Both the position numbers and the translations under genes were made by a program. 23,796 bases of DNA from a virus. Shown piece by piece: positions 5,030-22,089 of this stretch. Within the stretch, counting starts at the first letter, position 1. Every line of letters starts with the position of its first letter. The notes below the pieces were generated by a model. The model worked only from the letters and a program-made list of their open reading frames with translations, did no database searches and was not told the DNA's origin. Location of the stretch: positions 6,234 to 30,029 of IMG/VR virus record IMGVR_UViG_3300002231_000013. The stretch is one strand, 5' to 3'.

Positions 5030-6265
5030 TTATCCCCATTGTAGCCAAGTGCCGTGGATTCTTAGTTCTTTATCGTTTGCGTTATCAGCCTGATACCCCA
5101 TGGTGGTGCCAGAGGTTTGTCCCGAAATATCTATCTCGCCAGAAGTGTAGATCTCGATATTGGCGTCATAATCCGCCATCTTGGTGAGGGTTGCCGCCGA
5201 AGTGCTTGTGAAGTCATCCCTGGTAGCGTAATAGATCAAGTCGGTGTTAATAGTGACCACATCTATAGGGTCAACCAACGCCACAATTCTAGCGTAAGTT
5301 GGGACAGCCAAAGCTGTGGCAGGCTCAGATATGAGACTGAATGCGCTAGACCCAGAGTAAGCCGCAGTAGGAGGGGTGAAGTCTCCTGTGGTATATGTGC
5401 CTAGATTGCTGTTAAACGCAACCTCATCCATCAGTCCGTTGAAATCCCACGCCCCGTCAGGGCGGTTACCGATGTAAAAACCGGCAGTGTTAGCTCCACC
5501 ATCCTTTACGGTAAAAGTGTCAGCACTCTCATACCCGTTCACATACAGGTAACCCGTACCAGCCTTCCTTACGAACCTGACGTGATACCAAGTATCGGCT
5601 GACAGGCTAGGAACTTCTATGGGAAGAGTAAACGCCCTGTCTTCGTTAGCAGCACCAGCACCTACAGACGTGTGAAACTTGGAGTCACTACCGTTCCAGT
5701 ACATCGCGATCCCTCTGTTGAGGAGAGAGCTATCCGTAGCAAAAAGCCCCTGAACGCCAGTAGTAGCGTTGAGGTAAATCCAAGTCTCGAAAAGCCAGTC
5801 ATTCGTGAGAGGGTCCCAATCTGCGCTAGTCGCAAGGGACAGAGCATCATCCGTTCCGTCAAACAAAATGGAAGTTGTACCAAACTTTGGCCCCGTACCT
5901 TCGACCGACATATCACTATGCTGGGTTTGGTTGTTAGCTGTGACCGTCTTCGAACCAGCGGAGTCCACGAAAGTAGTGCTCCCATCTGTGGTGTTAGAGT
6001 GGATCAGCAGCGTGTAGCTTGCGGGGTTTGTGTAGTAGTCGTTTGTACCATCATAAGTAGCAGAGGATGCCACGGTATCAACACCTGTCTCATCGTGGTA
6101 CTCATCAGCAACACCTTTGACCATGTTGAATATGGTCCAGCCATCGTTGATAGCCGTCCTGAGGCTGAGGAGACCTATATTGTCAGAGTTGGTGCCTATC
6201 TGGGCTATCTGCTCGGCAGTAGCACCACCACCTCCACCGAAAGGTGGGTAGAAAGGTCCAAGCAT
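5030..6265 (-). CDS. Virion protein with LamG/concanavalin A-like lectin domain
   Basis: 411 residues. It opens with a glycine-rich leader (MLGPFYPPFGGGGGATAEQI), then a short helical linker and, at about residues 125-300, a lectin fold of the LamG_3 type: SILFDGTDDALSL, WLFETWIYLNATTGVQGLF, ADTWYHVRFVRKAGTGYLYV, NGYESADTF and GLMDEVAFNSNLGTYT. This is a carbohydrate-binding jelly roll common in phage capsid-decoration and tail proteins. The start ATG 6265 overlaps the previous TAA and has an excellent GGAGG. Likely role: surface glycan binding by the virion, either on the capsid or on the tail; position between capsid and fibre genes does not decide which. Confidence 0.75.
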   Translation of the reverse strand: MLGPFYPPFGGGGGATAEQIAQIGTNSDNIGLLSLRTAINDGWTIFNMVKGVADEYHDETGVDTVASSATYDGTNDYYTNPASYTLLIHSNTTDGSTTFVDSAGSKTVTANNQTQHSDMSVEGTGPKFGTTSILFDGTDDALSLATSADWDPLTNDWLFETWIYLNATTGVQGLFATDSSLLNRGIAMYWNGSDSKFHTSVGAGAANEDRAFTLPIEVPSLSADTWYHVRFVRKAGTGYLYVNGYESADTFTVKDGGANTAGFYIGNRPDGAWDFNGLMDEVAFNSNLGTYTTGDFTPPTAAYSGSSAFSLISEPATALAVPTYARIVALVDPIDVVTINTDLIYYATRDDFTSTSAATLTKMADYDANIEIYTSGEIDISGQTSGTTMGYQADNANDKELRIHGTWLQWG

Positions 6266-6588
6266 TATTTCCTCCGGCTACGGAATAGTGTTACGGTTAC
6301 AGTATCAGTGGTTCCAGTCTTCTTCAGACGGAACAGGCCAGGACCGAACCCTGTCTGCATCTTGGTCGTGGAATCAAGTACAGTGCCTGAGCTCTCCCAG
6401 AGCAGCGAGTTGTCCGCTTTTCGAGTAGCGAACTGAATGTCTACAGAATCCGCTGATAGCCCGGAGCACGCTATGGTTGTGTTCCGATCAACGTAAAATG
6501 ACTTGGTCTCGAAAGCCGTCGACACCTCCTGAATAGGTGCCTCCGAAGTAGAATCGTATACGCATACGTCAACCATATCTGCACTCAT
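6265..6588 (-). CDS. Small beta-rich protein next to the capsid gene
   Basis: 107 residues from ATG 6588 (MSADMVDVCVYDSTSEAPIQ), which has AGGAGA seven bases upstream. A longer frame reaching 6630 is not credible because it would begin inside the terminator hairpin. The protein is Ser/Thr-rich with alternating hydrophobics (FETKSFYVDRNTTIACSGL) and ends with basic RSRRK. It is the first gene after the capsid terminator and is coupled to the lectin gene by a TAATG overlap. A small capsid- or tail-associated role is plausible; no family is recognised. Confidence 0.6.
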   Translation of the reverse strand: MSADMVDVCVYDSTSEAPIQEVSTAFETKSFYVDRNTTIACSGLSADSVDIQFATRKADNSLLWESSGTVLDSTTKMQTGFGPGLFRLKKTGTTDTVTVTLFRSRRK

Positions 6589-6650: not shown

Positions 6651-7844
6651 TTACCCAGCGCTGGTAGCGCCGGTGATCTTCGCCAGAGTGGGCATGGAGC
6701 CGTACTCAAGGCCTACTTCCGAACGCCACACGTCCGAGCCTCCATCGACGCCATCCTTCTTGACATCGGTTTCGAACTCAACCAGAGGAGCGTTGTCCAG
6801 AACCCTCATCTTGACCTGCATTGGGTCGTAGATGATTCCGCCAGCAGAGAGGTCACCTGCTACGGTGAACTGCTCATGTATGGCGAACTTCAAGGTTCCG
6901 AAGGGAGAGATGTAGTTGAAGACCTGCATCCCGTATTCACGAGAGCCCATCTCCGTCTGCAGCTTGCCCTTGGCGAAGGTGTTGATGATCGACACCAGCC
7001 TACGAGAAGCCAGACAGACCTTGTCCTGAGAGCCATAGGCGAAGGCTTTGGTCTCGAGGAAGTTGTCCCACTGAGATTCCGTCAGGGTTCCACCAGCAGC
7101 CAGAGTGTTGTCATACCCTGCAGCCTGCGCAAGAGAGATGAACTCAAGGAGTCCACTCATGTAACGCCGGGGCTGGTCACCTCCACCATTTTCGATTCCC
7201 CTGCGGCCCCAGATGAAAGCCTTTTCCATCTTCTTCTTGTGCTCGCGGGTTTTCTCTTCACGGCGGAACTTCATGTCCTGTGGGTTGACACGCAGCTTCG
7301 TGCGCATGTAGGTCTTGGTGTACTCGACCGACGTGCGGATAATCTGGGTGTAACTGTAGTACTCATCCAGCTTCACAGCAATCGCCTGAGGCAGATCAGA
7401 TCCTTCTTTCTGCGCATCAGAGATGTTGTAGATGATGTCCTCATCAGCGATAGCTGCAGCAGTCGACCCAGCAACACCACGAGTAATCGTGAGAGTGTTG
7501 GTACCAACGGTAACAGCGTCAATGCGGATAATTTCACCGTACGCGCCAGTCGTCTTGTCAACAACCACGCAGATCTCCTCAGGGAGAAACTTGGTTGCAT
7601 CGTCAACTACCAGTGCTGTGGTGACGTTGTCAATCGCGCCATTCACCGTATCGGTGTCAGGACGATCATCATTGCCGTACCACTCGAACTTCGAGTTGTG
7701 GCAAGAGTTTGCGGAAATTGCCTGACTGAGAGTCAGGAAGGGGGTAATACTCGGCCACAGCTTGTAAATTGTGGGAGTAAAATCACGAGGCTGGTTGGAT
7801 GCCGTCGTGTTGCCAGTGCTCTGGCGGCCTACTATCTGTGTCAT
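6651..7844 (-). CDS. Major capsid protein (HK97 fold, SU10/DUF5309-like)
   Basis: 397 residues, intact. The N-terminus MTQIVGRQSTGNTTASNQPR and the following DFTPTIYKLWPSITPFLTLS match the pattern of SU10-type major capsid proteins (DUF5309). A small inserted beta domain is visible at about residues 70-140 (VDDATKFLPEEICVVVDKTT, IRIDAVTVGTNTLTITRG). The long spine-helix region reads YTKTYMRTKLRVNPQDMKFR then EKTREHKKKMEKAFIWGRRG. It follows the scaffold and precedes a strong intrinsic terminator, as expected for the most heavily expressed virion gene. The ribosome-binding site is AAGG about nine bases ahead of ATG 7844. Confident for capsid; the subfamily assignment is from memory of the motif style. 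Confidence 0.88.
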   Translation of the reverse strand: MTQIVGRQSTGNTTASNQPRDFTPTIYKLWPSITPFLTLSQAISANSCHNSKFEWYGNDDRPDTDTVNGAIDNVTTALVVDDATKFLPEEICVVVDKTTGAYGEIIRIDAVTVGTNTLTITRGVAGSTAAAIADEDIIYNISDAQKEGSDLPQAIAVKLDEYYSYTQIIRTSVEYTKTYMRTKLRVNPQDMKFRREEKTREHKKKMEKAFIWGRRGIENGGGDQPRRYMSGLLEFISLAQAAGYDNTLAAGGTLTESQWDNFLETKAFAYGSQDKVCLASRRLVSIINTFAKGKLQTEMGSREYGMQVFNYISPFGTLKFAIHEQFTVAGDLSAGGIIYDPMQVKMRVLDNAPLVEFETDVKKDGVDGGSDVWRSEVGLEYGSMPTLAKITGATSAG

Positions 7845-7854
7845 CGTTTATGCC

Positions 7855-8912
7855 TTATTTTGGTATGGGAACGGGCTCCCCAAAGAGTTCCTTTTCCAAA
7901 GCGGCGGTCGGGTCAGGGGCTGAAGAGCCACCTCCCGGGAGTGCTGAGCCAGGGCGTACAGGAGTGTATGGCGCAGGTGCCGGGGGAGTGGCTGGCGCCT
8001 GCGGTTGGGTGTTCAGTTCAGTTGCGTAGACAATCTCTGCAGCCCTCTGAGAAGGGATCCCGCTGTTATACAGAGCATTGAACTCTGTAGCCTTCGCCAG
8101 TATTTGCTCTTTGGACACACCTTTGCCGGTCAGGAAGGTTCCGATCTTATTCATCTCGGACTGCCTGGACGCCGCTTGCGTAGCCTGCTCTCTCTGGGTC
8201 AGATTCTGCTGGATCTGCTGCGTACTGCCAGTCACTTTTGAAAGCTCCTGTCGTAGCGCAGTAACCTCTGATTTTGAGCGATCGCTCTGCAGCTCGAACA
8301 ACGTTGCCATCTTACCAAGGATTTCCAATTCCGGCTTTGCTTCAGCCATCTTCTTCATGTCCCCGATCATCTCAGACATCTTGGTCTCTTCCGGAGAAGG
8401 ACCAGCAGGTTCTGCCGGTTGCCCGACGATCTGCTTGTTCAAACTATACTGAACCTCATTGAACCTGTTGGGATCCTGAGCTTTCAGCTTCTGCAGTTCC
8501 TGCACTTGGACCAGCACGGCCGGATCAAACTGAGCCAGCTGAGCTTCTCGTTGTGCAAGTTCGTTCTCGCGTACCTTCAGAGCCTCTTGATTCTGAAAGA
8601 ATGTCTTACCTTGGCGCACATAATCAGCAGCTTCCTGAGGGTTGAGGTCAAGGGTCATCTCCTCGCCATTCACCTTCGTTGTCAAAATAATACCACCATC
8701 CTCTTTCAGCTGGTACGGAAGTTCCGGAGCGGCTGGCGGAGTTTCAGGAGCAGCTGGAGCTACGGGAGTCTGCGGCAGGGGGCTGGTGTTGCCGGTGCCG
8801 TATCCGGAGCAGCGGGAGCTTGTCCTTCATCTACCATGAAATCAGGCATGAGAAGATCTCCGCCGTCATCGGGTGTGGTTGGTGCTATAGTAGTATCTGC
8901 TGGTTGCGTCAT
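7855..8912 (-). CDS. Capsid scaffolding protein (one frameshift)
   Basis: The bulk of the protein (TTG 8685 to 7855, 276 aa as read) is a highly charged, Gln-rich coiled coil (RENELAQREAQLAQFDPAVL; TALRQELSKVTGSTQQIQQN) with a Pro-rich tail and end LEKELFGEPVPIPK, the classic composition of a phage scaffold. The true start is ATG 8912 with GGAG seven bases upstream, reading MTQPADTTIAPTTPDDGGDL. That frame hits a TAG because the C-run at 8778-8782 has five bases; a sixth C joins PATPAP to LPQTPVAPAAPETPP and on to the coiled coil. The repaired protein is about 353 aa. It is placed immediately before the capsid gene (10-base gap), where scaffolds usually lie. It guides capsid assembly and is then lost or degraded. 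Confidence 0.8.
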
Positions 8913-13261: not shown

Positions 13262-13535
13262 AGCGCTCCCTGGTAACAAAGCTGCCGTTGGGGTCTGGCC
13301 GGAACACGTACGACTTCTTGGCTGTGCTCCATACCAGCCCACCAAAAGGCCCATCATACTCAACACTTTCGTAGTACCTGAACATCTGGAAATTCATTAC
13401 AGACAATGAATCCTTGGATGTCTTGCGGATGTCCTTGTCAGTCTCCCCATCTGCAACTATAACGAAATGGTCAGGATCATCAAGGTAATCCAGCAGTGCT
13501 GCTGGGGATACCAACGGCTTACCCCTCGTAAACAT
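13230..13535 (-). CDS. Unknown 101-aa protein coupled to DNA polymerase
   Basis: It starts MFTRGKPLVSPAALLDYLDD and includes PDHFVIVADGETDKDIRKTS and YYESVEYDGPFGGLVWSTAK. The ATG at 13535 overlaps the end of polymerase by 17 bases, and its own stop overlaps the candidate TerS by 32 bases, so it is part of the same transcript. A compact alpha/beta character is suggested, but no family is recognised. It stands at the boundary between the replication and packaging modules. Confidence 0.6.
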   Translation of the reverse strand: MFTRGKPLVSPAALLDYLDDPDHFVIVADGETDKDIRKTSKDSLSVMNFQMFRYYESVEYDGPFGGLVWSTAKKSYVFRPDPNGSFVTRERYEQDTNSTVN

Positions 13536-15159
13536 CCAGTCTCCCGTAAGAATCGAAACGTGGTTTGGCCTTCTTTATCCAGCGCTTGGTCAGTGTGGAT
13601 TCCACACCTATCTTCATGCCTGGCATTACCTCTGACATACCTTGGATCATAGCCAGCTCAAACCCATCAACCACCTTCTGCCGGTAGTCGTGGTCCTCGT
13701 AGTCAGGGATCTGGAAGATGATCTCATCATGCACGAACAGCTTCTGACTGCACCCAGCGTAATCCGGATCACCGTAGCACATATGCCCTGTTTTGCATAT
13801 GGCACGCTTGGCGCCGTCTGCCGTCAGACCTTGGAAATAGGAATTACAGGCTGAGCAAAAAGACGCTCCTGCCCGTATCCTGTCAGTTGACACCTGTCGT
13901 ACAGATATACTTCCGGAGCCTTCGTCACACTTACCGATGAACTTGAAGTACTCCTTCATCTCCGGCTGTGCGTCAAACCAGGCTGCCTTCAGGCCCTCTG
14001 AGTCCGTCACTGTTACGTGTATCCCGTAGCTGGTTCTGGCGTAGCCTACAAAAGCATCTACGCCCATTCCACCAGGGTATCCGAAGTTCGGAGCCTTGGC
14101 CATCTGCCGAGCCTCTAGCACCTCTGGGGCCTCGTCCTCATACGCCTTCTCAATCTCCTCGTACGTATTGTACGGACAATCACCCTTCGCCTGCAGGATT
14201 CTCAAAGCAGTCACAAGGTGTGGGTCCTTACCGGAGTTGATGGCGTTATACAGGTACAGCTCTTCCTCAGGAAGATCAAGTAGCACCTTTGTGCAGTACG
14301 CCAGTGACACCAGCTCAATGAAGCTGTAGTCAATCGCCAGCAACAGATGCCCTGGGTCAGCAACAAAGCACTCCCGGTACCCTGCTTCCCGTGGAGGGTT
14401 CTGCAGGTTGGGTTGCCGGCAAGATGTCCTGCCAGTTTCCACAAGCACATTGAGGCTTGCGTGCACCCGTGGTTCCCCGAACGGTTTCAGGTATGTAGAC
14501 TGGTTGTGCAGATCTGTGCTGATCTTCTGGAACACCTGCAGTGTTTCACAGAATGGTGCCAGCAGTCCTACTGCATCAGAATCACAGGATATGTTGCCCT
14601 CAGTCTTCCCATCCGCTTTCATCTTTGCGGTTGGTGGTTTCCTGGGCACTTCCATCTCAGCTTTGTCTGAGGCCTGTATGATCAACTGTTCGAAGACCTT
14701 CTTCTTGCGGGTGTATGGGAATTCATCCCCAGCCTTTTCCTTCTTGGGATCTTTCACGAACAGCCCTGCCTTCAACAATGGAGGAAGGTTCTCTGCTATG
14801 TTCTCACGAACACGTTTCACCAACACTGCGTGTGCTTCAGGATCTGTAGCGAACCCGACTACACCCATAAGGCACAGGAAGAAGTCAGCTTCTGCCTGGC
14901 GGTACATGTCCTCCATGGGAGGGCCATACGTATTGCACTGTCCGTCGTAGACCTCAAGTGTGATCTTCGGGTCATCAAGTGCGTATTGGGAAGCGTCAGC
15001 TGGCCACTGCTCAAGAGGCGCGCCATCAAGCTCATGGTACCGTAGGCGCCAAATGTCATCACCCTTCTTTGTGCCACTGACATCAACTCCCGTGTGCCGC
15101 TTGTAGCAGCCAGACAATGAAGCGTCTAGCCCTGTTGAACTGCCAGCTATCCCTTGCAA
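13519..15159 (-). CDS. polA: DNA polymerase family A, polymerase domain (with Exo III)
   Basis: 546 residues read from a TTG at 15159. ASQYALDDPKITLEVY at 57-72 carries the Exo III Asp. Polymerase motifs: TGRTSCRQPNLQNPP (242-256), motif A LLAIDYSFIELVSL (Asp about 277), motif B RQMAKAPNFGYPGGMG (351-366; R351, K355, F359), and motif C FVHDEIIF near the end. The O-helix Tyr of E. coli Pol I is replaced by Gly, with a GYPGGMG version that I recall from some phage enzymes. An extra stretch with five Cys (SFCSACNSYF ... CKTGHMCYG ... GCSQ) precedes motif C. As sequenced it is cut off from its own exonuclease domain; the exonuclease is in the same frame 51 bases upstream, past two stops. The repaired enzyme is about 650 residues, a normal size for phage PolA. 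Confidence 0.88.
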   Translation of the reverse strand: MQGIAGSSTGLDASLSGCYKRHTGVDVSGTKKGDDIWRLRYHELDGAPLEQWPADASQYALDDPKITLEVYDGQCNTYGPPMEDMYRQAEADFFLCLMGVVGFATDPEAHAVLVKRVRENIAENLPPLLKAGLFVKDPKKEKAGDEFPYTRKKKVFEQLIIQASDKAEMEVPRKPPTAKMKADGKTEGNISCDSDAVGLLAPFCETLQVFQKISTDLHNQSTYLKPFGEPRVHASLNVLVETGRTSCRQPNLQNPPREAGYRECFVADPGHLLLAIDYSFIELVSLAYCTKVLLDLPEEELYLYNAINSGKDPHLVTALRILQAKGDCPYNTYEEIEKAYEDEAPEVLEARQMAKAPNFGYPGGMGVDAFVGYARTSYGIHVTVTDSEGLKAAWFDAQPEMKEYFKFIGKCDEGSGSISVRQVSTDRIRAGASFCSACNSYFQGLTADGAKRAICKTGHMCYGDPDYAGCSQKLFVHDEIIFQIPDYEDHDYRQKVVDGFELAMIQGMSEVMPGMKIGVESTLTKRWIKKAKPRFDSYGRLDVYEG

Positions 15160-16297: not shown

Positions 16298-18196
16298 CTA
16301 TGTGCTCATGATAGTCTTGATACCTACGCTGTCAAGACCCGCTTTTGCATTTCTTGCTATTTTTGCAAATATGCTGTTGTCGTAATCAGCAAACAGCAGC
16401 TTTTGTGCGCCTGCTCCGGACTCTTCCATGTACCGTGCCTGAGACAATACTTTCAATAATCTCTGTCTCTCAGGACCAGTGGCGCACGAAAGAACTACTC
16501 TGACTTCGTCTGCGTTCTGTCCTGCTCTGTGGCATCTTCCAATGTACTGCTCGAATACCGAGGCATTAGAAGTCCATTCGCTGAACAGCATATTTGAGAA
16601 GTGCTGTAGATTCTTTCCTGTTCCATGCGCTCTACCTGCGCATACCAGTATTCTGCCCTGGTCCCGGCTGTCCAGATAATTATGAGGATGGAACCAGTTA
16701 GGATCACAATCAGCAGGACAATGCACAACCCTATCACCAAACAAATGCCATAGGTGCTCATACATCTTCTCTCCAAACAAGTTCCATTGATACCAGATTA
16801 TAGCACCCTGCTCAGGGCCTATATCGTTTATGTACTTCTCAGCCTGCTCCAGCTTCCAATTACTCAACCACACCTCCCTACGATCTTTCTTCGGCTCCTC
16901 GCCATCGTGGTATGCTGCATCATATATGTGCTGAAGACGTGCTACCTCTGGGGCCCGCTTCCTCAATCCTTCCAGCAGCAGGAATGGTGTGTCGAAGTCC
17001 CGCTCCTTACGTCTGTCAAGGAACTTCTTTGCTGCCTTCTTGAATGCTGAGTGCCTCTCTGCTTTCTCCAGTACGTGGTCTGGTGTGTCAGGGGGGAAGA
17101 AGCATTCGTAGTAGAATCCGTTAACCAGCTGGTTCAGGTACCGGCCATACTCCAATGCATCTGTCACGTAGTCCCCGTCCGGAGTAGTCCACCTGTCAAC
17201 CAGGTTATCTATGTGCTGCTGCATGTCGGCCGGTATCGATTTGAAAAGCTCCGTCTCCACGCGCAGTGCGCAATCAACTGAGCTGCCAGATGTAGCAACC
17301 ACTCCAGGACAGGAGTGAAGGCGTAGGGAATAGATCTTCCTGAAATGCTCCTGTGCTACTGCCTGGTACGGGAATAGCTCATTCTTCTGGGCCCAGTCCA
17401 CCAGACCCTGCACCTCTTCCCCTCTGTCATTCCATAGCATTCCGAACTGCCCCTCAGTGTCCGGCCGTAACAGCTCATCCCACTGGTTCAGTACCACCCA
17501 TGAGTTGGGAAGCGGGCTGCGGGCGCCAAGGGCCATGTCCATCAGATGCTTGTAGTCCTTGATGGACTTCTGGGTAATCGTGCCGGACATGCAGCAGAAT
17601 CGTGCGTCCTGCCACTGCAGGTACCGGTGGAACCGCTTGGTCCTGGCTGACTTCTCATTGCGCAGGTAGTGGCACTCGTCTGCTATGATCAGATCCACAT
17701 CGTCCATCATCTCCAGCATATCGTCCGCGTCTGGTGTTGAGAGCAGGCTGTAGGGACACACCATCAGGCCTGTCCACTGGGTCTTCAACATCTGCTCCCG
17801 TTTTGTGGGTGTTAATCCGTTGAGACAATGTATCTCATATCCGGGGGCAAATTCGTAAACACACGTTGGCCAGTCGGCTTCCATCAGCTGAACGCACAGT
17901 TTTGGTGGGACGAAGAGCACTGCTCTGTCGGAGTCCATCACCTTGGGTAGCAGTAGGGAGATGAAGGTCTTGCCGTGACCTACACCTATGGGCCCAAACA
18001 GGCCCTCATATTCAAATGCTGTGGCCAGAGCGTCTGCCTGCTTTGGCCACAGCTGTAGGGTTTTACCCTGAATCAACTCACCAATGCGGCGGGCGTTCCG
18101 GTTTTCGAACTCTATAGGTGCCTGCTCGAGCTTCTTGGTTTCAAGGAAAGCTCCGAGGCCTAGAGCAGCTCGTGCTCTGGCTATTTCGGGATGCAC
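16298..18196 (-). CDS. SF2 (SNF2-like) helicase/ATPase
   Basis: 632 residues, intact, GTG start overlapping the methyltransferase TAG as TAGTG. Motif I GPIGVGHGKTF (68-78), Ia VLFVPPKL, motif II DLIIADECHYL with DECH at 173-176, motif III MSGTITQKS at about 203-211, and motif VI QYIGRCHRAGQ at 550-560. The Q-x-x-GR-x-HR-x-GQ form is as in SNF2-type and related DNA-translocating proteins. The large insertion between motifs III and VI holds no clear nuclease. Likely work: branch migration, fork remodelling or recombination, with the neighbouring resolvase and nuclease. The last 25 codons also contain a repeated promoter-operator element for the next gene. Confidence 0.87.
   Translation of the reverse strand: MHPEIARARAALGLGAFLETKKLEQAPIEFENRNARRIGELIQGKTLQLWPKQADALATAFEYEGLFGPIGVGHGKTFISLLLPKVMDSDRAVLFVPPKLCVQLMEADWPTCVYEFAPGYEIHCLNGLTPTKREQMLKTQWTGLMVCPYSLLSTPDADDMLEMMDDVDLIIADECHYLRNEKSARTKRFHRYLQWQDARFCCMSGTITQKSIKDYKHLMDMALGARSPLPNSWVVLNQWDELLRPDTEGQFGMLWNDRGEEVQGLVDWAQKNELFPYQAVAQEHFRKIYSLRLHSCPGVVATSGSSVDCALRVETELFKSIPADMQQHIDNLVDRWTTPDGDYVTDALEYGRYLNQLVNGFYYECFFPPDTPDHVLEKAERHSAFKKAAKKFLDRRKERDFDTPFLLLEGLRKRAPEVARLQHIYDAAYHDGEEPKKDRREVWLSNWKLEQAEKYINDIGPEQGAIIWYQWNLFGEKMYEHLWHLFGDRVVHCPADCDPNWFHPHNYLDSRDQGRILVCAGRAHGTGKNLQHFSNMLFSEWTSNASVFEQYIGRCHRAGQNADEVRVVLSCATGPERQRLLKVLSQARYMEESGAGAQKLLFADYDNSIFAKIARNAKAGLDSVGIKTIMST
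16308..16336 (-). promoter_or_regulatory. Promoter with operator-like dyad, copy 2 (upstream of the P/A/Q-tailed protein)
   Basis: Minus strand: TTGACA (16330-16335), 16-base spacer, TATCAT (16308-16313). The -35 and most of the spacer are one dyad, CTTGACAGC-GTA-GGTATCAAG (16316-16336), and flanking GTC/GAC lengthens the arms. Predicted start of RNA is about 16301, 38 bases before ATG 16263. It lies within the helicase coding end (GLDSVGIKTIM), so it has to serve two functions. It matches the copy at 22123-22151 at 19 of 21 positions. Confidence 0.62.
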
Positions 18197-19221
18197 TAAG
18201 TAATCTCCATATAGCTTTCTATGAAGACTTGCGCTTGCGGTGCAACGATTGCATTGCCGTAGCCGCGCAGTCGTCCCACTCTTGCGGTAGGCCCATCAGC
18301 CAACGGGAATGTGCCGGGTTCAACTGCCCTCCACTTCTCGTCTCGGCAGAAGATCCAGTCAGCATCTCCCCAGTGGCCGTTAGTCGGGCGGGGGAATCCG
18401 CCGTCGCATGAACCAGCATCGACATTTCTATTGACTTTCCTATTTTCATGCGCCTCTGGATAGCTGGGTCGTGCCATTTGCCGCGATCCCTGTCGTCCGC
18501 TGACATTGGTGTCGGCCATGCTGCCAGCTGTGCAAAGTCGTTTAGGTCGTTGCTGTGCGTTTTGTCGTGGGCACGCTTTGCTTGCCCGCTTTTCCAGTCG
18601 CGGGCCTGCGGAGTTGGCCACGACATCAACTGAACCGCCATGTTCAGCGTCTGATTCTTGGCGAAAGGGTCGTATTTCTCCCCACGCTCCGAATCCGTCT
18701 TCGTTGGCGTCGGCCAGTGCATTTTCCGCAGCCCAGTACATTCGCTGTCTTTGGTGCGGCGCGCCGACGCTGCAAGCCGGGAATGTGACCGCCCCGCTGG
18801 AGTAGTCACTTCCTTCCAAGTCAGATTGTACATTGTCGAGCCAAGCGAGTCCAGCTTTTCCTGCAACCTGTTCACCAAAGACGACTGGAGGTCTGCACGC
18901 ATCGATGAGGTTGTGGAAGACTGGCCAGAGATGTCGCTCGTCTTCAATTCCTTTTCCCTTTCCTGCTGTGCTGAAAGGCTGGCATGGGCAGCTTCCTGTC
19001 CAGACAGGCATATCGTCAGACCATCCTGCACACCTAAGAGCGTAAGACCAGACCCCAATTCCGGCGAAAAAGTGGCACTGCGTAAATCCCAGCAGATCTC
19101 CTGCTGCGACATCTGTGATTGATCGTTCATCAACTTCTCCATCAGCTATGAGACCTCTTTTGATCAGCTCTCTCAGCCATGCTGCTGCTTTGCCGTCAAT
19201 CTCGTTGTAATAGGCTGCCAC
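18196..19221 (-). CDS. C5 cytosine-specific DNA methyltransferase
   Basis: 341 residues, GTG 19221 overlapping the previous TAG (TAGTG). Motif I HFFAGIG (50-56), motif [11 protein letters not shown] with catalytic Cys 80, motif VI FGEQVAG (115-121, EQV in place of the usual ENV), motif [15 protein letters not shown] (153-163), and motif [18 protein letters not shown] near the C-terminus. The region between VIII and X (target recognition) is poorly conserved in outlook and includes [15 protein letters not shown] and [18 protein letters not shown]. It methylates cytosine in phage DNA, presumably to escape host restriction; no cognate restriction enzyme is seen. Remarkably, a second 303-307-residue frame is open within almost the whole gene. 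Confidence 0.9.
18219..19130 (-). CDS. Overprinted ORF with WPTP repeats and [13 protein letters not shown] motif, inside the methyltransferase gene
   Basis: 303 residues from ATG 19130 (MNDQSQM...), with GGAGAAG at 19134-19140; another ATG at 19142 gives 307. It is on the same strand as the methyltransferase, in another frame, and lies wholly within it. Features: [20 protein letters not shown]; three WPTP repeats ([36 protein letters not shown]); [32 protein letters not shown]; and a basic end RKRKSS. I remember proteins like this as phage products next to or overlapping cytosine methyltransferases. Its end [14 protein letters not shown] is the alternative reading of the highly conserved [15 protein letters not shown], so part of its conservation may just mirror the methyltransferase. 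Expression is supported by the ribosome-binding site and length, not proven. Confidence 0.55.
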
Positions 19222-19568: not shown

Positions 19569-20014
19569 GCTTTGCTCCGATGTAGTAGTCAATCATCCCT
19601 ATGGCGCATAGGTAGTCCTCCTGCATTGCAGGAGCAATTCCGTACTTAGTGCGCATGCGGTCATGTGTTATCTTCTTCGGTACACCACCGTTCCATGCGC
19701 TAGGGTGGTAAAATATCGTGTGAGTGCTCTGGTCCCCAACAACCGCGGCAACGCTGTAGCACACTGCGTGCAGGTCCATCAATGCCTGCTTGCCCATGCG
19801 CTCATTCATGCCTCTTGGGTTCTGCACTTCAATCAGCAGTGTGTCTATCTGCAGGCCTTCAAGCGTGCGGCCAACCCTGCGTGCCATCTCAAGGACCGCG
19901 TCCCCTCCTGACAGGCCACCCTTCACCGTGACATTACAGTAGCCTTGCAATGCATTGTTCTGATATGTTGCCACACCAGAACAATAGCATTGACGGATCG
20001 ATAGCGGCTATCAC
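19540..20014 (-). CDS. RuvC-like Holliday junction resolvase (one frameshift near the N-terminus)
   Basis: The open frame begins at GTG 19974 (144 aa), but the family's first motif is upstream in another frame: GTG 20014, overlapping the previous TGA as GTGA, reads MIAAIDPSMLL. Removing one T near 19980-19986 joins it to SGVATYQNNALQGYCNV. Then RuvC-type features follow in order: Asp in AIDPS, Glu in TLLIEVQNPRG, STHTIFYHPSAWNGGVPKK with DRMRTKYG, and an Asp in EDYLCAIGMIDYY (the second Asp of the usual DxxDA is Cys). About 157 residues, normal for phage RuvC-like resolvases. It would cut four-way junctions before packaging, together with the RecB-like nuclease and helicase. Confidence 0.72.
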
Positions 20015-21204
20015 TTCGTTCCGCGAATTACTGTGAAACCGATGCGCTCAAGAGCATCAACCACAGTAGCGTCAACAGGGTCAGCGTAGTTTGCCATGAC
20101 CACGCTGTGCTTCGAGCACTCAGTAGCGATCGATCCCATGTGACCAAGCAACTGCTTGATGGGCTCGTTGTACTGGTGGCACCGAATGTCTGCCAAATTG
20201 TACTGCCCGGCGAGTGCCTCAGCTGAAGCTGCGTATATCTGGTGCAGCTTCTTCACCTTCAGGTTGGGGCAGAAGCAATCAACCAGCACTATGTTCTGGC
20301 TGTAGTTCGGCTTGCTGTCAGGCGCAGGCGGTGCTGGTTGGGCTGCAGGCGCCTGAGGCTGAGCTACAGGAGCTGCTGGCGCCTGAGGCTGCGCTGGCTG
20401 TGCAACAGGCTCAGGAGGCGCCACAGCGGCTGCTGGCTGCTCTGGGGGCTGTGCAGGGGCTGCAACGGCTGGCGCAGGCTGAGCGGGTGCTAGAGCACTA
20501 GGCTGAGGCTGAGCTGCTGCTGCTGGCTGCTGCGGTGGATGGTTGGCAGGGTTGCCTGGGTCCATCGTACCACCTGCCACCTCAGTGGGCTGGGTTGCTG
20601 CGGGCTGCGCTGGGGCAGGTTGGGTTGCGGCAGGTTCCCCACCCATCAGGTTGGGATCGTCAGGCTGTTCCAGCCCCTCCTCGTACATGGTGCGCCACTC
20701 GTCAATCCTTTTGACGCCTGCGGCCAGAACCAGTTTCCCGGTGGCTTCTGCAGGGTACGCTACGATCAGCGCTTTCAGAAGGGTGTAGAGCTGCATGGTT
20801 TGCTTGCCCAGGAGCTTCTGTGTCTTGCGCCCTTCAGTGGCCAGGACCTCTGACAGGGATGGGGTGGGTGCAACGCCCAGCTCTTCACATGCTGTGCAGG
20901 ATGCCTCATAGGCGCCTGAAAGATCCTGAAGGTACTGCTCAATACCTTCTTTCTTGAGCGCAACGCGTACGCTATCCCACTTGCTCTCAGTCATCCCTAC
21001 GTCAACTGTGTAGGCTGACAGGTTGAGGGGTTGTAGACTGGACGGCATAGCTGCTGCGGGCTGCGCAGGTGCCTGTGCTGGGGGTGGTACTGCAGCAACG
21101 CCGGCTGCCGTGGGGGGCGGGCCAGCCATTTCCTGCTTGAAGGGTTGCTGGGTCCTGTTGGTGGCGCCTTGTAGCGGCATCACAGGGGCATTCAGATTTT
21201 CCAT
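20011..21204 (-). CDS. Possible separate P/A/Q-rich protein from an internal start
   Basis: ATG 21204 lies in frame inside the 692-aa frame and has GAGGAG at 21211-21216, six bases ahead, the best ribosome-binding site in this stretch. It would give a 397-residue protein starting MENLNAPVMPLQGATNRTQQ. If the T-run at 21218-21221 had three bases in place of four, the nuclease frame would stop at TAG right before GAGGAG and this would simply be the next gene. As sequenced it can be made as a nested product or as part of the fusion. Function unknown; it may be a scaffold- or SSB-like partner given its long flexible linkers. Confidence 0.5.
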   Translation of the reverse strand: MENLNAPVMPLQGATNRTQQPFKQEMAGPPPTAAGVAAVPPPAQAPAQPAAAMPSSLQPLNLSAYTVDVGMTESKWDSVRVALKKEGIEQYLQDLSGAYEASCTACEELGVAPTPSLSEVLATEGRKTQKLLGKQTMQLYTLLKALIVAYPAEATGKLVLAAGVKRIDEWRTMYEEGLEQPDDPNLMGGEPAATQPAPAQPAATQPTEVAGGTMDPGNPANHPPQQPAAAAQPQPSALAPAQPAPAVAAPAQPPEQPAAAVAPPEPVAQPAQPQAPAAPVAQPQAPAAQPAPPAPDSKPNYSQNIVLVDCFCPNLKVKKLHQIYAASAEALAGQYNLADIRCHQYNEPIKQLLGHMGSIATECSKHSVVMANYADPVDATVVDALERIGFTVIRGTK

Positions 21205-22089
21205 CGACTTCTCCTCTAAAAGAAAGTTTTGTTTGAGCCTCTCGGGTGAGAGACCACCTTTGCAAATTGGTATGAATGCGCAGCCCGCAGATGTCTTCGT
21301 GCGGAACTTGCTGCAGTGTTTCAAATTCTGGTGGACGTTGCCGTTGAGGGCGGTTACCCAGTCGTCAGCATGTCCGTACTCATCAGCTATCTGCTGCATC
21401 TTGGATGATGAATCAATAACGCGGTCCCATACTGATGTAATATCTTTGTCCTCCATGACGGTTTTGAAGGATCTGACTTCGTTCGGGGACTTTTTCAAGT
21501 ACTGGATGTGGCCGATATATACCTTGTAGTCTGCCAGGGCTTCATCATCCTTGGTGTCCTTGCAGTACATGCCCATCTGGATGTCCAGGGGCAGGGTGTA
21601 TGGGGTCTCACCGTACTTGAAATCACTGGTTGTCTTGTGGTCGAAGATGAATATCTCCTTCGTGGTGTGGTTGATGAGTCGTAAATCGATGTAACCGATG
21701 TAGGTGATGCCTTCCATGACCTCACCATTGATCTCTGTCTCGATCTCTGTAGCCTCACTGGCTATCCAGACCTTCAGCTTGGGACGGGCGTTGTTGATAA
21801 GACGCATGATCGTGCGGTACTGCACGTCATCCAGGCACAGCTTGTTTACCTTGTCCAGCTCTTTGCGGTCGTCTGCGTCAACGAACTTCTTGATGAAGAG
21901 TACCTTGAGAGTCGTGAAGTCTTTTTCGATAGAACCCTTGGTGCGCAGGAAGTATTCAACTGCCATGTGAAAGCAGGAGCCGAAGATCTGTGCCTGGGTG
22001 CTGGGCTGCTTCACCTTGTGAACGTATGCCAGGTACCACTGCATAGGGCAGCTGTTGAACATCTTGATTTGAGATGCTGAGACTCTCAT
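20011..22089 (-). CDS. PD-(D/E)XK (RecB/Cas4-like) nuclease fused in frame to a P/A/Q-rich protein
   Basis: 692 residues; ATG 22089 with GGAGAAAG directly upstream. Nuclease domain, residues 1-295: start MRVSASQIKMFNSCPMQWYL, motif with GYIDLRL, catalytic IFIFDHKTTSDF (D-x-K), and the RecB-type motif LDIQMGMYC (Q-x3-Y). One early Cys (SCPMQWY) and three late Cys (KHCSKFRTKTSAGCAFIPIC) recall the iron-sulphur nucleases AddB/Cas4. Residues 296-692 begin MENLNAPVMPLQG, include two P/A/Q-rich runs and two small domains (VGMTESKWDSVRVALKKEGI; IVLVDCFCPNLKVKKLHQIY, then HSVVMANYADPVDATVVDAL). The exact place where the two parts meet has a strong ribosome-binding site, and a one-base change would produce a stop there, so two genes are possible. 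Role: DNA end processing in phage recombination. Confidence 0.78.
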   Translation of the reverse strand: MRVSASQIKMFNSCPMQWYLAYVHKVKQPSTQAQIFGSCFHMAVEYFLRTKGSIEKDFTTLKVLFIKKFVDADDRKELDKVNKLCLDDVQYRTIMRLINNARPKLKVWIASEATEIETEINGEVMEGITYIGYIDLRLINHTTKEIFIFDHKTTSDFKYGETPYTLPLDIQMGMYCKDTKDDEALADYKVYIGHIQYLKKSPNEVRSFKTVMEDKDITSVWDRVIDSSSKMQQIADEYGHADDWVTALNGNVHQNLKHCSKFRTKTSAGCAFIPICKGGLSPERLKQNFLLEEKSMENLNAPVMPLQGATNRTQQPFKQEMAGPPPTAAGVAAVPPPAQAPAQPAAAMPSSLQPLNLSAYTVDVGMTESKWDSVRVALKKEGIEQYLQDLSGAYEASCTACEELGVAPTPSLSEVLATEGRKTQKLLGKQTMQLYTLLKALIVAYPAEATGKLVLAAGVKRIDEWRTMYEEGLEQPDDPNLMGGEPAATQPAPAQPAATQPTEVAGGTMDPGNPANHPPQQPAAAAQPQPSALAPAQPAPAVAAPAQPPEQPAAAVAPPEPVAQPAQPQAPAAPVAQPQAPAAQPAPPAPDSKPNYSQNIVLVDCFCPNLKVKKLHQIYAASAEALAGQYNLADIRCHQYNEPIKQLLGHMGSIATECSKHSVVMANYADPVDATVVDALERIGFTVIRGTK
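20315..20640 (-). repeat. Pro/Ala/Gln low-complexity coding repeats
   Basis: The minus strand encodes runs such as AQPAPAVAAPAQPPEQPA and QAPAAPVAQPQAPAAQP, with the plus-strand units GCGCCTGAGGCTG and CTGGCGCCTGAGG repeated near 20345 and 20380. They resemble the tail of the 261-aa protein at 15482-15760, so the two proteins share linker style. Confidence 0.6.
21211..21216 (-). promoter_or_regulatory. Strong internal ribosome-binding site
   Basis: GAGGAG on the minus strand, six bases before ATG 21204, within the long nuclease-fusion frame (coding Glu-Glu). It decides whether a nested second product is made. Confidence 0.6.

Follow-up and report, generated by a model that had tools for sequence, protein, structure and literature searches.

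A conserved frame inside a phage C5 DNA methyltransferase gene probably encodes the recognition half of the same enzyme

Why does a phage gene for a C5 DNA methyltransferase stay open in a second reading frame on the same strand over some 900 bases, and what does this frame encode? The question is raised by the window, the whole stretch of 23,796 nucleotides that was analysed, which is part of a phage record of 40,389 bases (IMGVR_UViG_3300002231_000013). The methyltransferase gene, here called alpha, has replication genes as neighbors (helicase-like at 16298-18196, exonuclease-like at 20011-22089 and DNA polymerase-like at 13519-15159). The second frame, here called beta, is shifted by +1 against alpha, and position 2 of each beta codon is position 3 of an alpha codon. 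Both frames, and all the motifs that the original prediction had quoted from them, were found where it had placed them:

18196-19221, minus strand: alpha, the C5 DNA methyltransferase gene (341 aa, GTG start), with motifs I-VIII and X
18219-19130, minus strand: beta, the overprinted +1-frame gene, 303 codons from the ATG at 19130
18219-19142, minus strand: the longer extent of the beta-frame ORF (307 aa), the frame being open to 19142 and beyond

Elsewhere in the window, two long plus-strand ORFs lie opposite minus-strand genes, one of which is the major head protein gene (6876-8081, 401 aa, and 5672-6436, 254 aa); they are probably of compositional origin.

Alpha and the protein of the alternate frame both served as queries in the collection of related loci, most of which are metagenome contigs that entered the set because they resemble one of these frames. 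For the window alone, a run of at least 308 open codons arises in 0.75% of synonymous-codon shuffles, and the chance figure of 4e-7 that had been given originally was too strong for one sequence. Across the relatives chance can be ruled out, because not one of the 174 non-redundant complete alpha loci has a stop in the +1 frame over the core (three flagged cases among them have only a longer alpha C-terminus), because the open run reaches p<=0.01 in 50 of the 55 loci of the first set, each taken singly against synonymous shuffles, and because conservation in this frame is far above what the alpha amino acids would lead one to expect.

This conservation is confined to a part of the gene. Measured against synonymous shuffles, residue conservation in the alternate frame is close to expectation upstream (z 2-6.5) and far higher in the core (z 17-66); the jump, to z 23, comes at alpha codons 76-90, with values of up to 66, and the drop comes after codon 325; as the shuffles ignore relatedness, these values are inflated and are not probabilities, and it is the contrast along the gene that serves as internal control. 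The synonymous codon homozygosity ratio stays at about 1.1 up to codon 77, is mostly 1.5-3.9 within the core and has dropped to 0.94 at the end; its profile has sharp edges at codon 77 and about codon 327, and a few windows near 1 inside the core lie in the poorly alignable recognition stretch. A check for synonymous-site constraint on the methyltransferase frame had been proposed, and a strong excess was found from about codon 77 to about codon 327; the proposed search for alternate-frame stops in relatives found none in the core. All three tests that had been named as able to refute the original prediction were run, and none of them refuted it. The features that matter for the following comparison of the two frames are:

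18247-18993, minus strand: doubly constrained core, alpha codons 77-325, by synonymous homozygosity and alternate-frame conservation
18705-18716, minus strand: WPTP repeat 1 of beta, read in the beta translation
18609-18620, minus strand: WPTP repeat 2 of beta, read likewise
18507-18518, minus strand: WPTP repeat 3 of beta, read likewise
18276-18323, minus strand: motif IX block of beta, aligned with motif IX of single-chain enzymes and of split subunits bearing IX and X
18217-18270, minus strand: motif X of alpha, from alignment A4, with a C-terminal helix of pLDDT about 97

Position-specific divergence shows how the lead passes from one frame to the other along the gene. Up to codon 75, position 3 of alpha varies about 2-4 times as much as position 1, which is the pattern of an ordinary gene. 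The comparisons that follow are from a beta-based alignment, and an alpha-based one gives the same direction. In the WPTP region, beta position 3 varies more than beta position 2 in 49 of the 51 disjoint pairs that differ (p=1e-12), and since the beta frame dominates substitution there, the conservation of this region is not borrowed from alpha. The motif IX block behaves in the same sense, with 34 of 44 disjoint pairs (34 to 10), and in the tail alpha leads again. It had been cautioned that the conservation at the end of beta may be borrowed from motif X, and this holds for the last 15 or so beta residues, where alpha is dominant, but not for the motif IX block, which is constrained in its own right.

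These results bear on the reading that the open frame is a by-product of alpha's amino acids and base composition and that its motifs are alternate readings of alpha motifs. That an equally long run turns up in the shuffles of the window alone would suit such a reading, as would the first 45 or so beta-frame codons, which are hardly conserved and, like the last 15 residues, follow alpha constraint. It fails to explain why alternate-frame identity in the core lies tens of standard deviations above synonymous shuffles, why beta dominates substitution in the WPTP region, why start signals are in excess (see below) and why non-overlapping homologues exist, and we consider it hardly credible. Synonymous shuffles, the synonymous-site profile and position-specific divergence together rule out that beta conservation is due to chance or borrowed.

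The start of beta left a signature of its own. Stops in the beta frame are at or above expectation up to alpha codon 30 or so and are almost absent from codon 43. Of the 174 loci, 125 have an ATG with a properly spaced Shine-Dalgarno sequence over alpha codon 31 or 37, where synonymous shuffles give 13.0 (sd 3.2) and the +2 control frame gives 0, and it is nearly always at one of the two places, not at both. The codon-37 ATG is the commoner start in relatives (ATG in 126 of 174, ATG with Shine-Dalgarno sequence in 92 loci); the window has the first, and the start assigned to it originally matches the pattern of the family:

19137-19140, minus strand: Shine-Dalgarno GGAG of beta, 6 nt before the ATG at 19130
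19110-19112, minus strand: second in-frame ATG of beta, over alpha codon 37, without a Shine-Dalgarno sequence in the window

We think that beta would be translated from its own Shine-Dalgarno sequence and ATG within the alpha gene. Alternatively, beta could lack a start of its own and be made as a fusion with the alpha start by programmed +1 frameshifting, which would fit the offset of +1 in every split or overprinted case of the motif-regex survey (the profile survey gave +2 for L120, in which alpha is broken) and the unusual conservation of CCT TTC at alpha codons 82-83. However, CCT is absent in several loci, alpha of L223 carries an intein-like insertion near this very point, stops are depleted from codon 43, well upstream of the core, and the conserved Shine-Dalgarno sequence and ATG inside alpha speak for an internal start, which makes frameshifting very unlikely. 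In two relatives, the beta frame runs stop-free into an MT-A70 adenine methyltransferase (L041, 3001-4479) and into a polymerase-like reading (L083, 2905-6213); as proof of translation these continuations were set aside, since the downstream genes could be started separately and a stop may just happen to be missing from the frames. With openness, synonymous constraint and the start signature recurring across relatives, the lasting dual coding that had been suggested is well supported, and judging from these sequence data it is nearly certain that the beta frame is a real gene.

What the two genes encode is more readily said of alpha, for which the following features are relevant:

18979-18987, minus strand: motif IV Pro-Cys-Gln of alpha with the catalytic Cys, codons 79-81, invariant in alignment A4
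18361-18684, minus strand: alpha residues 180-287, predicted disordered and of variable length, where the target-recognition domain of ordinary enzymes would be

Alpha matches the Pfam family PF00145 (1.8e-13, 51.1 bits against a cut-off of 22), with catalytic PCQ, EQV and motif VIII residues that are invariant in A4, and it matches the PHROG profile phrog_363 at 2e-79. Its AF2 model consists of a C5 catalytic domain and the motif X helix and resembles M.HhaI (Z 15.1 and rmsd 3.2 over 180 aligned residues). The pLDDT is below 50 at residues 187-252 and 256-287, residues 180-287 are unalignable in alignment A1, and substitution over the latter is led by the beta frame. The model predicts no folded recognition domain at about residues 187-287, where ordinary enzymes have theirs. 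No motif IX was found in the alpha frame, for which the original prediction had not listed it either; it is present in the +1 frame, and the full set of motifs is not in one chain.

Some peculiarities of alpha should be mentioned. In residues 1-70, a motif-II-like YYNEIDxxAAxWL precedes a motif-I-like HFFAGIG, and the PF00145 match covers residues 73-167 only; compared with M.HhaI, the motifs at the N-terminus seem to be in permuted order. N-terminal pieces of alpha taken alone gave weak profile matches to single-chain enzymes, being too short for significance. Motif I, which the original prediction had listed, is present, but it sits in an unusual order after the motif-II-like sequence. In L223 (EBPR siphovirus 2), the intein-like segment of alpha seems to end (VVHN) just before the catalytic Cys, with the frame extending to about 1200, and the beta core downstream of it is intact. 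A single nonsense codon interrupts alpha in L172, where it falls on the Gln of PCQ, and in L133; it could be a sequencing error or a natural loss, and beta is intact in both. In L219 and L123, alpha is longer by well over 100 codons, which lie past the end of beta, downstream of the recognition stretch and upstream of motif X.

Beta is less easily classified. It matches phrog_1008 (5e-44), and its sequence had no match in Pfam, including PF00145, or in the PDB. The AF2 model has a mean pLDDT of 62 and a pTM of 0.30, and only one part of it is confident:

18762-18911, minus strand: N-terminal helix and LTWK hairpin of beta, model residues 31-80, AF2 pLDDT 66-89 by block

A fold search with this low-confidence model gave only middling matches (best Z 4.6), none of which was a recognition domain. 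So poor a model might be what is to be expected of an obligate partner, which is not proof.

Decisive for the identity of beta are relatives in which the same module is arranged differently, and single-chain, split and nearly sequential, and overprinted layouts occur among them. Motifs I-VIII, IX and X are found in a single chain in Gordonia phage SchottB and 48 related loci, and it is mostly in this SchottB family that the single-chain layout occurs. Two single-chain C5 methyltransferases (L456 and L464) have WPTP repeats and motif IX in frame between motifs VIII and X. In mycobacteriophage Shaka, gp77 has motifs I-VIII and then ends, and gp76, which is read in another frame, unites PTP repeats, LNAAFSEWMMGWEEGW and motif X in a single chain. 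Phages of Paenibacillus, Lacticaseibacillus, Acinetobacter, Microcystis and Stenotrophomonas have further C5 methyltransferases whose genes are overlapped by a +1 frame, and these frames end in a related NPxW-type LMG block. By motif regex, in a version that replaced a stricter first one and with unclassified loci remaining in every group, the Shaka family is split-sequential in 8 of 9 classified loci and the family of the window overprinted in 191 of 197, the other 6 differing only in that no motif X was detected. The original prediction was right that proteins with these motifs exist in other phages. Stand-alone homologues, for which a search had been proposed, also exist, since Shaka gp76 and similar proteins have no overlapping methyltransferase frame over the WPTP and motif IX part. 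An orphan gene overprinted de novo, which was considered as well, is ruled out by these split and single-chain homologues outside the overlap.

Profile comparisons connect the layouts. Beta matches the overlapping beta of other C5 families at 99.9% (E 1e-31) and the split subunits carrying motifs IX and X at 99.5% (E 4e-22, 170 columns), and these split subunits in turn match single-chain enzymes at 99.9%. Directly, motif IX of beta matches the single-chain enzymes at 94%, and direct similarity to them is limited to its 21 columns; the WPTP link to single-chain enzymes comes from L456 and L464, inspected by eye, and from the split bridge A7. The motif IX block of beta is homologous to motif IX of the single-chain enzymes. 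Because overprinted, split and single-chain forms are linked stepwise in these profiles, the block at 18276-18323 is, by sequence, motif IX, and the WPTP stretch is at the target-recognition position of ordinary enzymes. Beta is most likely the target-recognition and motif IX half of the same enzyme, and this match to split and single-chain relatives replaces the earlier guess of a protein of unknown function, perhaps a modulator.

A related possibility is that beta is translated and conserved but stands outside the enzyme as an accessory factor, a regulator or an inhibitor of host restriction. Its N-terminal helix-hairpin is absent from the single-chain enzymes examined and it has no direct match to a known recognition domain, which would agree with such a role. 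This role does not account for WPTP repeats and motif IX standing in frame between motifs VIII and X in L456 and L464, for the same module forming one chain with motif X in split enzymes, or for alpha being without motif IX and a folded recognition domain, and we consider it unlikely. It is highly probable that alpha and beta are instead two halves of one C5 methyltransferase that consists of two polypeptides, as M.EcoHK31I does, and that beta is overprinted on alpha.

We infer complex formation, activity, a target site and the direction of evolution as follows. Alpha would contribute motif X and, with motifs I-VIII, the core that binds AdoMet and carries out catalysis, and beta the target-recognition region, that is the WPTP stretch, and motif IX; both would assemble to one enzyme that methylates cytosine at a specific site in phage DNA, which presumably counters host restriction. 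The origin was most likely a single-chain enzyme that split, after which alpha may have read on through the recognition region, retaining motif X, and beta may have extended upstream over motifs IV-VIII. Beta would then be the older frame in the recognition stretch, where alpha is filler, and alpha the older frame elsewhere. That this represents a widespread class of phage enzymes, with the specificity subunit overprinted on its own catalytic subunit over about 900 bases, the older frame changing from alpha to beta and back to alpha, and with a descent from single-chain enzymes via a sequential split, appears reasonably likely to us.

The arrangement can be compared with known systems. The smaller polypeptide of M.EcoHK31I is encoded in an overlapping alternate frame. 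In this C5 enzyme (YGGCCR), the larger polypeptide has motifs I-VIII and X and the predicted recognition domain, and the smaller one has motif IX (PMC3404938). Compared by description, not by sequence, alpha with I-VIII and X but without IX, beta with IX, and the overlapping frame all resemble this enzyme, whereas the recognition domain is placed in the larger subunit there and in beta here. In M.AquI (C5, CYCGRG), which also consists of two polypeptides, the catalytic half is separate from motif IX and from part of the recognition region (PMC3404938), as in the present pair, but the smaller subunit also has motif X, as in the split Shaka form and unlike the overprinted form. Shaka gp77 and gp76 likewise divide a catalytic half from a half with PTP repeats and motif IX, in two frames with a +1 offset; in Shaka, however, gp77 stops short of motif IX, the two genes share only a short overlap and it is the second one that contains motif X. 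M.HhaI and M.HaeIII share the catalytic fold of alpha, but each of them is one chain that also contains the recognition domain and motif IX. In some phage records, the annotation "DNA methyltransferase" is given to both frames; the same overlapping pair is seen in PHROG 363 and PHROG 1008 and in ORF31 and ORF30 of Escherichia phage K1G, both annotated in this way, and the overlap is left unexplained there. A literature search found no paper that describes this phage overlap.

Long same-strand overlapping genes have rarely been proven. In the present case, the products appear to be the halves of a single enzyme, relatives without the overlap or with a single chain provide controls, and selection can be scored at each codon in both frames. 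The WPTP family (PHROG 1008), which has no Pfam match, would obtain a likely function, and the apparently missing recognition domain of these phage C5 methyltransferases would be explained. If the annotated methyltransferase gene were cloned with recoded codons, its partner beta would be lost. If the view of a widespread class is true, few same-strand overlapping gene pairs of tailed phages would be longer or more widely conserved than alpha and beta.
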